Shown: piece after piece, positions 1,184 through 17,996 of the stretch | Layout of the letters: each line of letters opens with the position of its first letter | Position numbering within the stretch: position 1 is the stretch's first letter | Assembly: GCA_026002835.1 (NCBI GenBank) | Contig: BPGC01000016.1 | Coordinates: 1-40,336 of the forward strand | DNA from: Candidatus Nitrosocaldaceae archaeon | GTDB lineage: Archaea > Thermoproteota > Nitrososphaeria > Nitrososphaerales > Nitrosocaldaceae | Direction: 5' to 3' | DNA: 40,336 nucleotides | Notes under the pieces: generated by a model | Database searches by the model: none | Told to the model about the DNA's origin: nothing | The model's input: only the letters and a program-made list of their open reading frames with translations | Translations under genes and position numbers: made by a program

Positions 1184-3806
1184 AAGCATAGGCTATAATA
1201 AATTAACAGATATTCAGAAGAAAGCGTTACATACAATTGTTAGAAGGATAGATACATTACTTATAGCTCCTACTGGTTCTGGTAAGACAGAAGCAGCTAT
1301 AATACCTATCTTTACACTTTTGGATAATAAGAAGAGAGGTATTAAAGCATTATATATAACTCCATTAAGAGCATTGAATAGAGATATCCTAAGAAGGATA
1401 GTATCTTATGGAGAAGCAAAAGGGTTAAGGGTTGCTGTAAGGCATGGCGATACAAGCACTAAAGAGAGAAGAGCTATAGCATCAAATCCTCCAGATGTGC
1501 TTATAACAACTCCAGAATCACTAGCCATAATGCTTGCTAGTGAGAAGATGATTAAAGGATTAAAGAGTATAGAATGGATTGTTATAGATGAGATACATGA
1601 ACTAGTATCAAATGAGCGAGGCTCACATTTATCACTAAGCCTTGAAAGATTAGAAGCGTTAAGTGCTAATAGCATTACTAGAGTTGGATTATCCGCAACA
1701 TTAGGTAACATAAGAGATGCAGCAGATTTTCTAGTTGGAATTAATAAGAGATGCGCTATAATGATAGATAACTCAATTAGAAAGTATGATATAGATGTAA
1801 TCTATAAGGAAGGTACTCTTAATACTATAGCAAAATTCATAGCTGATTATGTTAAGAATTTAGATGGTAATATATTATTATTTACTAATACTAGAGATGA
1901 GGCAGAGTATCTATCAACAGTAATGAAGAATTATACAAATGTGAATGTGGATGTGCATCATGGCTCGTTATCAAGAGTTGTTAGAGAAGAGACGGAAGAG
2001 AAACTTAGAGATGGTAATGCTGGGATAGTAGTAACTACATCATCACTAGAACTGGGTTTAGATATAGGATCAGTTGATACAGTAATCCATTATGGCTCTC
2101 CTAGACAAGTTAGCAAATTGGCACAAAGGATAGGAAGGAGCAAACATAAAGTAGGTTATTCAGCAAAAGGATTGATAATAGTAAATAGCAAGGATGATGA
2201 GTTAGAAGCAAGAGCTATAATCTCTAGACTTAAGAAAGGTTCGATAGAAGAACAATTAATCCATTACTCAGCCTATGATGTTTTAGCACATCATCTAGTA
2301 GGTTTAGCATTGGAGCATGATAAGGTTATGATAGATGATGCATGTGAGATATTAACAAAGGCTTATCCATTCAAAGATATAAGCATAGATGATATTTATC
2401 AATGCTTAGAGTTATTAGATAAGCATAGATTAATTAGATTATATGACGATTATTATAAACGAAGTATAAGAAGTAGGAAGTATTATTTTGAGAATATATC
2501 AACAATACCAGATATTCTAAAGTTTGAGGTAGTAGATGCTATAAGCAATAAGGTCATTGGAACCCTAGATCAAGAGTTTGTAGGAGATTATGGAGAGAAG
2601 GGTAACGTATTTGTATTGAAAGGATCTCAGTGGAGAATATTAGCAGTAGATGATACAAAGTTAAGAGTTACAGTAGAACCTATCAAGGGTGCAGCAATAA
2701 ACGTTCCATACTGGGTAGGCGAGATGATCCCAGTAGATTACAAGACAGCACAATTGGTAGGAAGGTTAAGGAATGATAGCATAAATGGAGTAATACCAAA
2801 CGATCATACTATAGTCATAGAATCTCTTAAACATGAGAATACAATCGTGATACATGCATCATTTGGAAATAAAGTAAATAATACAATTGCATCGTTATTA
2901 TCTACGATAATATCATCAAAGATAGGTTATTTGGTTGAGGCTAGAGCAGATGCATATAGGATAGCATTGACATCTAATGCAAGGATATTTGAGAGACATA
3001 TAATGGATTGCTTGAAAGATGATTATGAGCTAGAACCTATAATAATTGCATCTTTAACAAATACACATAACCTAAATTGGAGAGTTTGGCTAGTAGCAAA
3101 AAGGTTTGGTCTGATAGATAGAAAGGCTGTATATGATAAGAAGAGTGCTAGGCTATTATATGATAGATACTCTAAGACTTTGATAGTTAAAGAAGCTATA
3201 AGGGAATTGTTACATGATAAGTATGATATTACCAATACAAAACATGTATTGGATAAGATTAGAAATAATAGCATAAGATTGGTCTGGTTAGAAGTTGATA
3301 ATTTTTCAGAGTCAGCAAAATCTATAATAGATCATACAAGCAAGTTTGCATCCATGCCAGCAAATATAGAGCAAGGTGTTATAGAACTCGTTAAGGAAAG
3401 GTTAGAGAAAAGTAAGCATAGATTGATATGCATAAGGTGTGCAGAGTGGGAAAGGATAATTGAGAGTAAAGATGCTCCAGATGTATTAAGATGCTCATTA
3501 TGCAAATCTAGGCTTATAACATCAACATATACTAGTGATGATAGGTTAAAAGAGATAATAAGGAAGAGGCTTAAAGGAGTAAAATTAGATGACGAAGAAG
3601 AGAAAGAGTTCATGAGAGCATGGAAGCGAGCCTCATTACTCCATAACTTTGGAAGGAAAGCATTGATAGTATTATCAGGCTATGGTGTGGGAGTAGATAC
3701 AGCTGCTAGAATATTGAGGAATTGTGTAGACGATTCTAATATATACAAGATGATATATGAGGCTGAGAAACAGTATATAACTACAAGAGGATTCTGGAAT
3801 GACTAA
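1110..3806 (+). CDS. lhr: Lhr-type superfamily 2 DEAD/DEAH-box helicase
   Basis: An 898-residue ATP-dependent nucleic-acid helicase. Visible motifs are a Q-motif-like stretch near 30-40, Walker A APTGSGKT (53-60), DEIH (160-163), SATL (195-198) and motif VI QRIGRSKH near 340. The long C-terminal part matches the Lhr family in length. A C774-x2-C777 / C795-x2-C798 pair suggests a zinc site, and a Gly-rich hairpin (SGYGVGVDTAARIL) close to the end resembles a helix-hairpin-helix. Archaeal Lhr proteins remodel replication or repair intermediates; the substrate here is inferred. ATG codons at 1110 and 1116 are the only good starts. The gene overlaps topA by 8 nt, so the two are probably translationally coupled. 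Confidence 0.9.
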   Translation: MSMKRERRREQSLESVEGEVLEAFRSIGYNKLTDIQKKALHTIVRRIDTLLIAPTGSGKTEAAIIPIFTLLDNKKRGIKALYITPLRALNRDILRRIVSYGEAKGLRVAVRHGDTSTKERRAIASNPPDVLITTPESLAIMLASEKMIKGLKSIEWIVIDEIHELVSNERGSHLSLSLERLEALSANSITRVGLSATLGNIRDAADFLVGINKRCAIMIDNSIRKYDIDVIYKEGTLNTIAKFIADYVKNLDGNILLFTNTRDEAEYLSTVMKNYTNVNVDVHHGSLSRVVREETEEKLRDGNAGIVVTTSSLELGLDIGSVDTVIHYGSPRQVSKLAQRIGRSKHKVGYSAKGLIIVNSKDDELEARAIISRLKKGSIEEQLIHYSAYDVLAHHLVGLALEHDKVMIDDACEILTKAYPFKDISIDDIYQCLELLDKHRLIRLYDDYYKRSIRSRKYYFENISTIPDILKFEVVDAISNKVIGTLDQEFVGDYGEKGNVFVLKGSQWRILAVDDTKLRVTVEPIKGAAINVPYWVGEMIPVDYKTAQLVGRLRNDSINGVIPNDHTIVIESLKHENTIVIHASFGNKVNNTIASLLSTIISSKIGYLVEARADAYRIALTSNARIFERHIMDCLKDDYELEPIIIASLTNTHNLNWRVWLVAKRFGLIDRKAVYDKKSARLLYDRYSKTLIVKEAIRELLHDKYDITNTKHVLDKIRNNSIRLVWLEVDNFSESAKSIIDHTSKFASMPANIEQGVIELVKERLEKSKHRLICIRCAEWERIIESKDAPDVLRCSLCKSRLITSTYTSDDRLKEIIRKRLKGVKLDDEEEKEFMRAWKRASLLHNFGRKALIVLSGYGVGVDTAARILRNCVDDSNIYKMIYEAEKQYITTRGFWND

Positions 3807-5502: not shown

Positions 5503-5775
5503 TTATCTTAGTTATAAAAATCTTGATATTCTATATAATAAAAATATTCTAACTATTAAGAAGATGAAATATATTGACTAATAAAGCATTTAATATACAT
5601 ACTTAACAAAATTACTAATTGATAATATGACCCATTTAGTCAACTTTTAATAATTAATATGTATAAAAGTAAAGAATTAATAATCTTACTTATAAATAAT
5701 GTTAGTATAATATTCATTGATAAATATTTTGTTCAAATTGAATTTTTATATATTAGAATATAGTAGTGTATTGGG
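5503..5775. other. AT-rich intergenic region upstream of nrdJ
   Basis: About 270 nt without a convincing gene. It holds a spaced inverted repeat (5574-5643) and a TATA-like TTTTTATATATTA at about 5743-5755, some 30 nt before the nrdJ ATG, which is the likely core promoter. I see no tRNA or structured RNA. A cobalamin riboswitch, common for bacterial nrdJ, is not recognisable and would be unexpected in an archaeon. Confidence 0.5.
5574..5643. repeat. Spaced inverted repeat TTGACTAA ... TTAGTCAA upstream of nrdJ
   Basis: TTGACTAA at 5574-5581 is mirrored exactly by TTAGTCAA at 5636-5643, with 54 nt between. It lies 130-200 nt upstream of nrdJ, so it could be a distal operator pair or chance in AT-rich DNA. 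The 10167 regulator promoter was checked for the same word; only a partial match (GTTAGTC near 10074) was seen. Confidence 0.25.
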
Positions 5776-9371
<3,596 letters not shown>

Positions 9372-9378
9372 TTATCTC

Positions 9379-9843
9379 ATGTCTGAAGAACAACTGTTAG
9401 TTAGAAGGATAAAGGATGGCACAGTTATAGATCATATAGATAGTGGTAAAGCACTTATAGTATTAAAAGCATTGAATATAACTGGTAACGAAGGTAATGT
9501 TATAACTATAGCTATGAACGTTCCAAGCGATAAATTGGGCAAGAAGGACATAATCAAGGTTGAGAATAGATTCTTAGAGCCAGAAGAGACTAACAAGCTT
9601 GCATTATTCGCTCCACATGCATCGATAAATATAATATCAAATTATAAAGTTAAGGAGAAGAGGAATGTAGAACTACCAGACAAGTTTATAGATATTATAA
9701 AATGTGTAAATCCTAACTGCATAACTAATAGTGGAGAGAATATCTCAAGCGTTATAGAGGTTATAGATAAACATGAAAGACGGTTGAGATGCAGATACTG
9801 TAGAAGGCTTATTAACGTCTCGGAACTTTTATATCAGATCTGA
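9379..9843 (+). CDS. pyrI: Aspartate carbamoyltransferase regulatory chain
   Basis: A 154-residue regulatory chain. The N-terminal allosteric domain starts RRIKDGTVIDHIDSGKA, the nucleotide-binding signature of PyrI. The C-terminal zinc domain has C109, C114, C138 and C141, which bridge to PyrB. Family knowledge: PyrI confers CTP inhibition and ATP activation on the PyrB trimers. The ATG has a TATA-like element at -28. A small membrane-protein gene follows 8 nt downstream and is probably co-transcribed. Confidence 0.95.
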   Translation: MSEEQLLVRRIKDGTVIDHIDSGKALIVLKALNITGNEGNVITIAMNVPSDKLGKKDIIKVENRFLEPEETNKLALFAPHASINIISNYKVKEKRNVELPDKFIDIIKCVNPNCITNSGENISSVIEVIDKHERRLRCRYCRRLINVSELLYQI

Positions 9844-10076: not shown

Positions 10077-10132
10077 TCGTTACCCTCTAGTTAATATTAT
10101 TTGCTCTTTAAGTAAAGAATCTTTTATAAACC

Positions 10133-10166: not shown

Positions 10167-11945
10167 ATGGAGTTGAGTTATGATTACAAAAATACTAAAT
10201 CAAGTAAGAAGGCAAAGACTATATTCTCTGTATTAGCAAGCGCAAATAGAGTTGATATATTAAAGATCCTTAACTCTAAAGGACCATTAACATATTCAGA
10301 ACTTAAAGAGTATGCTGGCTTCAAGTCTAAGAAAGAGAGTGGAAAGTTTGCTTATCATCTAAGAAAGTTAACAAGACAGTCATTAATAGCATTGAATAGA
10401 GGAGAGAAGAAGTATACCATAACAAATCTAGGTAAACTCGTATTAAATCTAGTTAGACAGATCGAAGAAAGATCTCTAGTTGAAAGCGGGAAGATATACA
10501 TAAGAACTACTAAAAGATTCCAAGAGTTTAATACTCAAAGAGTTATGCAATTATTGATAAGAGATGCTGGAGTATCTCCAGAAATAGCAAATAAGATAGC
10601 AGAAGAAGTAGAATCAAAGATATTCAAATTAAACTTATCATATTTAACTGAACCAATCTTGCTAGAGATAATAAACAATACATTGTTAGAGCATGGCTAT
10701 GAAGAGTATAGAGAGAGGCTTTCTAGAGTAGGCATGGCAGCATCAGAACTATCCAAATTCTTTAGATATAATATCAACGATTTAATGTATAGATTAACAA
10801 ATAGCATATTAGAAGAGTATATGCTCTTCTCATACATCCCTAAAGATATCGCAGATCAGCATATCGAAGGAAATATAAATATTCCAAGTGGTTTAAATGC
10901 TATAACATATGATACTCTCTTCATAGATGTTACTAGCATTGATAATTATAAAGATCCTTATTCATTACTACAGCTATCTAGTTTAATAAAAGAAGCGTCT
11001 AAAGAGGTTGTATTTACTAATATAGAGTTCGATCTTACTAGTGATGAGATAGCAAGATTGTTTGATATATTAACATATAATACAAATGCATTACTATCAT
11101 TTGTAGTTAAAGATGGTAAAGAGAATGTGTTAGAAGGTTATAAACAGTATCTAGATAATAAAGAGATACCTAAGATTGGTTTGATATTAAAACCAGAGGA
11201 TAGCATAGAAGAGATATTAGAGTTAGGCGGTTTGATATCTATTGGTAACGGGGATAGAAGTATTTATGGTGTTAAGAGATATAATAGTATGGAAGCTGTA
11301 GTTCATTCAATATCTATAAACCTTCCAAGATTAGCTTATGAATCAAACAACGATGAGATGTATTTCAGAGCCAAACTAGCTATGATGTTAGATCCAGCAT
11401 TAGAGGCTATAAAGATAAAGCATGAATTCATTGCTAATACTAGAATGTTAAATAAAGATCTCAATGCTATAAGATACTCTATAAACCTAATAGATCCATA
11501 TACAGCAATTAACAAGATACTTGCGTATGAGAATTATCATGAAGTACTAGAGAAAACGATCAATACTGTTAATAACATACTTTCTGAGAAGGAAGATAAT
11601 TTTAGAGTATCTATAATCCATGATAATTGCATATCTAGATTCCTAGTATTAGATCTTGAGAGATATGGTAAGAATAAAAGTATCGAGAGTTATAATGAAG
11701 GTATTATAATAGATGATCTCAATACTATCAAGCATTATGCTAAGATAGATGCATTATTAGATGGTTCGAGTATATTTGTAGATCTAGATGCAACAAACGC
11801 TAGTATAACCGAAGTATCAAGAATGCTGGATCATTTCATCCCAATGATAAAGATCTATGCTTGTAATAAATGTAAGAGGAAAGGTAGATATGATTTCTGT
11901 AAATTATGTAATGCGAATGCTTCTCTATTAAGCATATTTACTTAA
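10167..11945 (+). CDS. Winged-helix / ATP-cone / NrdD-like fusion, probable dNTP-responsive regulator
   Basis: A 592-residue protein with four parts. Residues 15-95 are an ArsR-like winged helix (AYHLRKL recognition region). Residues 108-190 read as an ATP-cone, the allosteric nucleotide domain of reductases and NrdR. Residues 195-560 resemble anaerobic class III reductase NrdD: DQHIEGNINI parallels the NrdD start of the barrel, and SINLPRLA (383-390) is a characteristic NrdD string. Residues 566-581 form a Cys4 zinc site (C566, C569, C578, C581). It lacks the glycyl-radical motif and has essentially no Cys in the barrel, so catalysis is not expected. Inference: a retired reductase fold reused as nucleotide-sensing transcription factor, perhaps for nrdJ 2 kb away. 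Confidence 0.75.
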   Translation: MELSYDYKNTKSSKKAKTIFSVLASANRVDILKILNSKGPLTYSELKEYAGFKSKKESGKFAYHLRKLTRQSLIALNRGEKKYTITNLGKLVLNLVRQIEERSLVESGKIYIRTTKRFQEFNTQRVMQLLIRDAGVSPEIANKIAEEVESKIFKLNLSYLTEPILLEIINNTLLEHGYEEYRERLSRVGMAASELSKFFRYNINDLMYRLTNSILEEYMLFSYIPKDIADQHIEGNINIPSGLNAITYDTLFIDVTSIDNYKDPYSLLQLSSLIKEASKEVVFTNIEFDLTSDEIARLFDILTYNTNALLSFVVKDGKENVLEGYKQYLDNKEIPKIGLILKPEDSIEEILELGGLISIGNGDRSIYGVKRYNSMEAVVHSISINLPRLAYESNNDEMYFRAKLAMMLDPALEAIKIKHEFIANTRMLNKDLNAIRYSINLIDPYTAINKILAYENYHEVLEKTINTVNNILSEKEDNFRVSIIHDNCISRFLVLDLERYGKNKSIESYNEGIIIDDLNTIKHYAKIDALLDGSSIFVDLDATNASITEVSRMLDHFIPMIKIYACNKCKRKGRYDFCKLCNANASLLSIFT

Positions 11946-12738
11946 CATTTATACTGTAAATATCAACCCTCCTATTTCTTAGCAATGGTAGTTTTTCTCT
12001 TATATCATTTAGATAGTTTATATCAAGATCGGCTATACCTAAACCTTCTTCATCTCCCATATCTAATATTATATCTCCAAAAGGATCTATTATCATGCTC
12101 CTTCCTATGTATATATTACCTACTTGATCTGGCGCTACTATATAACAACCATTCTCTATAGCTCTAGCTCTTAGCATTACTTGCCAATGTTCAACTTTCT
12201 TATCACCAGCAACCCATGCTGATGGAACTATCAATACATTAGCACCATTTAATACAATCATTCTAGCAAGTTCTGGAAATCTTAAATCATAGCATATCAT
12301 CATGCCTATCTTCTCTTCATTAACCTTGATCAGTTCTGGAAGTTTATCTCCAGCAATGAGTTTTTCTGACTCTTTGAATCCTAATGCATCATATAGATGC
12401 AACTTTCTATAAACTGATATAACTTTATCTTTTATGAATACTGCAGTATCATATACTCTTGGTTTAAGATTACTTTTTTCATAAATAGTAGCAATTACTG
12501 CTATTTTATATCTCTTAGATGCTTCTACTAACGAAGATACAAACTCCCCATCTATACTTTCAGCAAGACTGTATAACTCTTCAACAGTTTGAGAATTAGG
12601 AGAATAAGCCATCAAAAATTCTGGAAATGCTATTAATTCAGCATTTTTCTTAGAAGCTTCCTCTATATACTCTAAAGCAAGTTTTAAATTCTCTTCTTTA
12701 TCTGTGGATGATCTAACCTGTGCTACCGCTACTCTCAT
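11938..12738 (-). CDS. Nitrilase-superfamily carbon-nitrogen hydrolase
   Basis: A 266-residue amidase of the nitrilase/omega-amidase fold. The catalytic triad is clear: E40 (AFPEF), K112 (YRKLHLYD) and C149 (MMICYDLRFPE). Length and motifs suit the Nit/omega-amidase branch that hydrolyses alpha-ketoglutaramate or deaminated glutathione, but the substrate cannot be set from motifs alone. The tautomerase gene lies 42 nt upstream on the same strand, so the two may share a transcript. Its 3' end overlaps the convergent regulator gene by 8 nt. Confidence 0.88.
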   Translation of the reverse strand: MRVAVAQVRSSTDKEENLKLALEYIEEASKKNAELIAFPEFLMAYSPNSQTVEELYSLAESIDGEFVSSLVEASKRYKIAVIATIYEKSNLKPRVYDTAVFIKDKVISVYRKLHLYDALGFKESEKLIAGDKLPELIKVNEEKIGMMICYDLRFPELARMIVLNGANVLIVPSAWVAGDKKVEHWQVMLRARAIENGCYIVAPDQVGNIYIGRSMIIDPFGDIILDMGDEEGLGIADLDINYLNDIREKLPLLRNRRVDIYSINVK

Positions 12739-17574: not shown

Positions 17575-17657
17575 GCGTCTAAGCATAATACTTTAATATA
17601 ACTCAACTGATTAGATTGACTCGTAATATTTTTGTAATAGAATGCTATATACTCTCT

Positions 17658-17996
17658 ATGCCAAAGAAGATAGAAGCTATAGTACGATTAGAAAGGATGC
17701 AGCATGTTAAAGATAGTTTAGTTGATGCGGGCGTGGGCGGAATGACTATATCTCAAGCAACTGGTTGGGGCAAAGAACGTGCTATTCAACATCTCGGTAG
17801 AGCTGGCAAGAGTGTTGAAGTTGATCTCTTACCAAAAGCAAAATTTGAGATAATAATAGACGATTCTAAAGTTGATCAGATTGTAAAAACTATAATTCAA
17901 GCAGCAAAGACCGGTGCTGTTGGTGATGGTATAGTTATAATTAGTGATGTAAATAATTGTATTAACATAAGAACTGAAACAGAACTAGAGCTGTAA
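17658..17996 (+). CDS. glnK: PII nitrogen-regulatory protein (GlnK type)
   Basis: A 112-residue PII signal protein. The core starts MPKKIEAIVRLERMQHVKDSL; the frame extends upstream to a TTG at 17616, but the ATG at 17658 fits the family and has a TATA-like TAATATTTTT about 30 nt before it. ATP-binding features include GVGGMT and TGAVGDGIVII. The T-loop reads GWGKERAIQHLGRAGKSVEVDLLPK in two overlapping parts and has Ser/Lys where bacterial GlnB has the uridylylated Tyr51, so that modification is not expected. Family role: binds ATP/ADP and 2-oxoglutarate and gates Amt. Adjacent divergent amt2 supports this. Confidence 0.93.
   Translation: MPKKIEAIVRLERMQHVKDSLVDAGVGGMTISQATGWGKERAIQHLGRAGKSVEVDLLPKAKFEIIIDDSKVDQIVKTIIQAAKTGAVGDGIVIISDVNNCINIRTETELEL

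Follow-up and report, generated by a model that had tools for sequence, protein, structure and literature searches.

A gene on the forward strand of the window, as the whole analysed stretch of 40,336 nucleotides is called hereafter, encodes a protein in which a winged helix and an ATP-cone are joined to a catalytically dead barrel of the type found in NrdD, the class III ribonucleotide reductase (RNR), and to a zinc ribbon. We read this protein, with a probability of about 0.74, as a one-component transcription factor that arose from a duplicated class III RNR and controls the RNR gene of the cell. It belongs to a large archaeal family whose members lie next to genes for two different classes of RNR and have lost the residues on which NrdD catalysis depends.

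Domain architecture and spread of the family

The gene, hereafter the regulator gene, and its domains are laid out as follows.

10167..11945, + strand: coding sequence, 592 aa, with winged helix, ATP-cone, catalytically dead NrdD barrel and zinc ribbon
10215..10451, + strand: winged helix, aa 17-95, ArsR/MarR-like (Pfam DUF7347, HTH_20)
10491..10736, + strand: ATP-cone, aa 109-190
10737..11846, + strand: NrdD-like region, aa 191-560, a helical lead-in and a barrel without the NrdD catalytic cysteines
11313..11336, + strand: SINLPRLA motif, aa 383-390, common to NrdD and the window protein
11862..11909, + strand: C-terminal CxxC-x8-CxxC zinc ribbon, aa 566-581, which aligns with the NrdD zinc site

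Starting from the N terminus, HTH_20 and DUF7347 both score above the Pfam cut-off, in agreement with the ArsR type that an earlier note, made from the sequence, had given to the winged helix, and profile matches to the PDB lead to HlyU/ArsR with E values of about 0.003-0.005. The winged helix, which includes the stretch GKFAYHLRKL, is the best conserved part of the protein. Across 19 sequences, its mean pairwise identity is 83%, with 40 of 79 columns invariant, as against 62% for the cone and 42% for the barrel, where 28 of 429 alignment columns (310 window residues) are invariant. As in ArsR-type regulators, a winged-helix fold thus goes with an ArsR-type profile; unlike in the ArsR/SmtB and MarR winged-helix regulators, no metal-sensing role is indicated, and the presumed sensor is the cone together with the barrel.

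The ATP-cone, also proposed earlier, is recovered in the structure model, where it matches 7p37, and its Pfam score lies below the cut-off in the window copy, L058 and L126 and above it in L003, L048, L070, L063 and L068. Counterparts of the nucleotide-binding positions of NrdR are kept in the family cone (I/V112, R/K113, E119 and K/R125), with position 119 being Q in the window copy and E in most relatives. For the N-terminal part of the model, the VIA rows are filled by winged helices, and NrdR provides the single cone row among the rows shown. Further along the chain, Foldseek and VIA find in the predicted structure an RNR barrel fold that matches NrdD ahead of NrdJ, the very similarity on which the earlier note had staked its reading, and the SINLPRLA motif that it had singled out is one that NrdD has as well. 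Comparison of the window protein with PDB sequences by phmmer gave chance matches only, so its link to RNRs depends on profile or fold.

Regulation of RNR by a DNA-binding ATP-cone protein is already known from NrdR (TIGR00244), the bacterial RNR repressor. Like NrdR, the archaeal protein contains an ATP-cone, but its N terminus is a winged helix where NrdR has a zinc ribbon, and it adds an NrdD-like body of ~370 residues or more. No N-terminal zinc ribbon of the NrdR type was found in the window protein, and the TIGR00244 profile did not match it at E values up to 1, so that the different build proposed at the outset stands.

A protein search returned 3942 matches among 7999 candidates scored, and all 120 of 120 examined among the matches listed combine winged-helix and NRDD domains, under source names as different as ArsR family transcriptional regulator and anaerobic ribonucleoside-triphosphate reductase. 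At 1e-5, the window protein has a match in 260 of 398 genomes from the phylum of the L001 genome, some of these being partial or to other ATP-cone proteins; 74 of the 398 are Nitrososphaerales-type genomes with E below 1e-140, and across the order a match at 1e-60 occurs in 269 of 300 genomes. Used alone as query against genome contigs, the window protein found one locus. Further members have ~750 aa in Bathyarchaeia and ~540-650 aa in other Nitrososphaeria, such as Caldarchaeales, and the reading frame is open in nearly all places listed.

NrdR is described as rare in archaea (PMC9110341), and neither NrdR (at 1e-10) nor NrdD (at 1e-40) was found in any of the 74 Nitrososphaerales-type genomes, all of which have the archaeal protein; the 35 of 398 genomes that carry NrdR all lie outside these 74. 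Several of them (G325, G282 and G238) have NrdR directly beside NrdD and the family protein too, so the latter is not simply a replacement for NrdR, and both systems can coexist.

Gene linkage and upstream sequences

The neighbouring genes in the window, together with two copies of a short upstream sequence considered below, are as follows.

5667..5677, + strand: AAGTAAAGAAT, second exact copy, 99 nt ahead of nrdJ (weak hint)
5776..8403, + strand: nrdJ, class II (B12-dependent) RNR with an ATP-cone of its own, the presumed target (TIGR02504, 769 bits)
8400..9371, - strand: pyrB, aspartate carbamoyltransferase catalytic chain, a neighbour in relatives too
9379..9843, + strand: pyrI, aspartate carbamoyltransferase regulatory chain
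10110..10120, + strand: AAGTAAAGAAT, 47 nt ahead of the regulator start codon (weak hint)
11938..12738, - strand: carbon-nitrogen hydrolase of the nitrilase family, convergent with the regulator and close to it in many relatives

The class II enzyme that the earlier note placed nearby is thus present, in the order nrdJ, pyrB, pyrI, regulator and nitrilase; because pyrB and pyrI stand between nrdJ and the regulator, control of nrdJ in the window would be in trans. L001 has the nitrilase first, followed by regulator, nrdJ, pyrB and pyrI, with other genes between the nitrilase and the regulator. This closer arrangement is the rule in Nitrososphaerales-type genomes, where nrdJ starts no more than 500 nt downstream of the regulator on the same strand in 71 of 74, a tie to the RNR gene that upholds the proposed connection. 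The other three consist of L111, which has an apparent frameshift with nrdJ still downstream on the same strand, and of L113 and L114, which are cut by contig ends; with L111 counted, nrdJ is beside the regulator in at least 72 of 74. Of the remaining window genes, a small ORF between pyrI and the regulator (window:9852-10076) encodes 74 aa, hydrophobic and probably a membrane protein, and two adjacent ammonium transporter genes with a P-II protein (window:14609-17434 and 17616-17996) are consistent with an ammonia-oxidising archaeon. The Nitrosocaldaceae-like genome G427 has two full-length nrdJ genes (L127 and L128) on different contigs, neither of them the contig of the regulator.

More distant members are linked to either class of RNR. 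In the bathyarchaeal-type locus L035, nrdJ is the next gene, and at least 13 genomes among the matches listed have a co-directional NrdD match downstream, at a distance of 1.8-2.4 kb from the N-terminal match of the regulator (G314, G306, G060, G277, G244, G107, G119, G125, G074, G272, G369, G088 and G155, of which G125, G074 and G272 look like near-copies). These 13 take in L042, L048 and L052, where nrdD lies 0.5-0.6 kb downstream on the same strand and the NrdD keeps its glycyl motif. It is chiefly this linkage to two RNR classes, in lineages far apart, that leads us to call the protein an RNR regulator.

Upstream of the regulator gene in many genomes lies a conserved near-palindrome, AGTCAYAARTCTTAWTTAC (AGTCATAAG-T-CTTATTTAC), which overlaps a TATA-like stretch. 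The pattern was derived from the upstream regions of the same 15 genomes that were then searched with it, allowing up to 2 mismatches. At 0-1 mismatch, 14 of the 15 contain one copy each, always just upstream of the regulator gene, and the fifteenth (G204) has no match at up to 2 mismatches. Matches total 19, the 5 that lie elsewhere all having 2 mismatches. A control with the reversed pattern, counted without a breakdown by mismatch, also gave 19 at up to 2 mismatches, so the number of matches is uninformative and the case rests on the place and the uniqueness of those with 0-1 mismatch. At 15 or more of 19 letters, the element occurs upstream of 51 of 87 loci, a set in which at least six genes were entered twice under two locus numbers and from which one further locus, too short, was left out; the column profile of the element was computed from rows picked by the same motif. 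It was not found in the window or in G427, nor in Nitrososphaera-type or L001-type promoters, where a different AT-rich block is present. It is a 19-bp candidate operator, and it could instead be a conserved core promoter.

The two copies of the 11-mer AAGTAAAGAAT listed above are the only exact ones in the 40 kb window. As a signal shared by nrdJ and the regulator, this sequence was rejected: among 653 upstream pairs, the top 15 have 12 to 16 letters in common, and because longer matches are so commonplace, it carries little weight. In G427, the region upstream of the regulator shares no motif of more than 11 letters with those of the two nrdJ copies. A 16-letter exact match, ATACAAGATGATATAT, occurs in the window within 280 nt upstream of both the topoisomerase gene at 3799 and the regulator at 10167, and both stretches that share it overlap other ORFs.

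The unit formed with nrdJ in 71 genomes would suit a protein partner equally well, namely a dead RNR subunit that pairs with NrdJ or titrates it by direct contact, the winged helix serving for dimerisation only, and there is precedent in an anaerobic RNR that is regulated through its oligomeric state (PMC11226230). We consider this improbable, as the barrel resembles NrdD ahead of NrdJ, other lineages are linked to nrdD, the winged helix rather than the barrel is best conserved, and the promoter element is conserved as well.

The carbamoyltransferase neighbours suggest another role, as a regulator of pyrimidine or arginine biosynthesis, the pathways that use carbamoyl phosphate, which would stand beside RNR genes by chance in some lineages. 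Beyond pyrB and pyrI in the window and L001, 20 bathyarchaeal-type loci (L033-L052) include 12 with an adjacent convergent pyrB, 3 with an adjacent pyrI and 1 with pyrB at 1.4 kb (L049), as against RNR neighbours in the form of nrdD in 3 (L042, L048 and L052) and nrdJ in 1 (L035), so that the bathyarchaeal-type copies read are mostly beside pyrB/pyrI and not an RNR gene. Eight members of 540-720 aa (L053-L058, L063 and L064) are divergent from a carbamoyltransferase gene, and all three of these carbamoyltransferases that were tested are ornithine carbamoyltransferases. Even so, such a role seems unlikely to us, because those co-directional neighbours whose identity was established are nrdJ or nrdD, and pyrB and pyrI, being convergent in the bathyarchaeal-type loci, have no promoter in common with the regulator. 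The body of the protein is moreover that of an RNR, and the ATP-cones that have been studied bind adenine nucleotides (PMC9110341).

Catalytic loss and separation from NrdD

The protein shares with NrdD the RNR barrel fold and the SINLPRLA motif, and differs from it in having neither the glycyl loop nor the catalytic cysteines and in the added winged helix. When 360 homologues were aligned with 25 NrdDs as controls, the three barrel cysteines (positions 179, 390 and 391 of the L048 NrdD), present in every one of the controls, were found in 1, 6 and 0 of the homologues, respectively, with the window copy not among the keepers. As the third is Cys in none, no homologue keeps all three. Cys occupies the second position of the NrdD pair in 0 of 360. 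To say simply that the barrel holds no Cys would go too far for the family, since 170 of 360 homologues have some Cys ahead of the NLPR motif (118 of 120 in one subset, from the search for ~750-aa Bathyarchaeia members). A winged-helix recognition motif is present in 288 of 360 homologues and 0 of 25 NrdDs.

The glycyl radical site is lost in a similar manner, as had been noticed for the window protein, which stops ahead of the glycyl loop. The RVxGY-type loop motif occurs in 25 of 25 NrdDs and in neither the window protein nor any of the 360 homologues, where the regular expression has 2 matches, both ahead of the ribbon and outside the loop. The glycyl Gly itself, found in 25 of 25 NrdDs, is G in 1 of 360 homologues (P0194), another residue in at most 39 and a gap in 320. 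A looser motif, RxxG anywhere past the ribbon, has 10 matches among the 360, of which five short tails (P0180, P0181, P0183, P0185 and P0186) and P0194 may retain the Gly. Thus L070, P0194 and perhaps those five have Gly at or near the glycyl place without the remaining motif, in tails such as TRVYGKYLP and SRLDGRYRPLSLW (L070:8179-10506; also P0194), and none of these copies has the conserved NrdD cysteine pair. A model of NrdG, the activase, had no match in 7 ORFs scanned around L070 or among four scanned window neighbours (topoisomerase, pyrB, pyrI and nitrilase), and no orthologue with an intact glycyl motif beside NrdG was found among the homologues and ORFs scanned.

A smaller set of 77 members (the window protein, 5 Nitrosocaldaceae-like, 31 AOA-type, 23 of 750 aa and 17 of 600 aa), aligned earlier with 3 NrdDs, gave a similar picture, with Cys at any of five barrel columns in 2 of 77 and Gly kept in 1 of 77 (L070), another residue standing there in 19 of 23 of the 750-aa class. 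The cysteine segment appears as gaps in this alignment and mostly as substitutions in that of 360 homologues; the exact cysteine columns vary with the alignment and the loss, judged from the sequences, does not. Several tails of the 750-aa class remain NrdD-like (ARTENMFTPLTLWAEAKRKDL in L033, compared with SRVTGYYQAVSGWNKGKREEL in NrdD), others end just past the ribbon, and the shortest align only roughly. AOA-type proteins terminate directly after the zinc ribbon. This ribbon is retained by 31 of 31 AOA-type proteins, 23 of 23 of the 750-aa class, 2 of 5 Nitrosocaldaceae-like homologues and 6 of 17 of the 600-aa class.

In a tree of FastTree quality with 53 family members (including 7 of the 31 aligned AOA-type rows) and 25 NrdDs, the NrdDs form one clade apart from the family with support of 1.0, a grouping that rests on the NrdD bipartition with no outside root; support within the family is modest in places. 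When the tree is rooted on NrdD, L070, L071 and L072 branch first (support 0.66-0.97), which fits a stepwise decay from the enzyme, and L070 and P0194 are possible intermediates in its loss.

Many members are named reductases in JGI and NCBI records, and the NrdD of T. maritima is active although its crystal structure is without the cysteine at the tip of the finger loop, which raises the idea that the family is still a reductase with a different radical route. That NrdD, however, keeps Gly621 and needs Cys329 and Cys330 (PMC4493059 for both statements). Given the near-complete absence of the corresponding residues from the 360 homologues, and the presence of nrdJ beside the regulator in at least 72 of the 74 Nitrososphaerales-type genomes, none of which has NrdD at 1e-40, continued reductase activity is strongly disfavoured and very improbable. 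A functionless, pseudogene-like relic, as the stepwise loss of glycyl loop, barrel similarity and zinc ribbon (missing from 3 of 5 Nitrosocaldaceae-like homologues and from 11 of 17 members of the 600-aa class) might suggest, is disfavoured by the open frames, the occurrence in 269 of 300 genomes of the order and the highly conserved winged helix, and is the least probable reading of all.

Proposed mechanism and meaning

We therefore return to a transcription factor derived from class III RNR. A duplicate of the enzyme would have gained an ArsR-type winged helix at its N terminus while its barrel cysteines and glycyl loop disappeared, the ATP-cone and the barrel being retained as a sensing and oligomerising body. 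Its target would be nrdJ in ammonia-oxidising and related archaea and probably nrdD in some Bathyarchaeia, and it would usually control itself too, being the first gene of the regulator-nrdJ unit. By analogy with NrdR, whose dATP/ATP-loaded forms bind RNR promoters (PMC9110341), a high ratio of dATP to ATP would load the cone with dATP and turn the protein into an oligomer. The paired winged helices of this oligomer would then sit on the palindromic operator that overlaps the promoter, stopping transcription of nrdJ and of the regulator itself, until dNTPs are drawn down and the operator is released. More speculatively, the cone may read dATP/ATP and the barrel, kept together with its dimer interface, may still accommodate dNTPs or NTPs where the specificity site or the active site used to be, as the earlier note had supposed for the specificity site, a division of labour that we regard as doubtful.

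Metabolic enzymes that double as regulators or have turned into them include PutA, BirA and NadR. As with these, an enzyme scaffold is predicted here to serve ligand-dependent gene control; unlike in these, catalysis appears lost. We know of no such case derived from an RNR, and to our knowledge the control of RNR genes in archaea is poorly understood. Among open-licence papers on archaeal RNR regulation or this architecture, none describes, by title or the start of its abstract, an RNR regulator made of a pseudo-reductase and a winged helix.

For an archaeal group that ranks among the most abundant, the finding provides a candidate RNR regulator, which can be tested directly because its presumed target gene is named and it has a candidate operator of 19 bp. 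It also indicates that the name ribonucleoside-triphosphate reductase, which databases give to many members, is misleading, as it points to an oxygen-sensitive RNR in archaea that oxidise ammonia aerobically. The family would represent a radical enzyme that has been converted into a regulator and whose intermediate stages survive. If the proposed sensing is true, one protein would sense how much DNA precursor is present as well as how the precursors are balanced, and would set RNR transcription, and the family would be an ancient archaeal counterpart that does the job of bacterial NrdR, reached through duplication of NrdD, across Nitrososphaeria and Bathyarchaeia.
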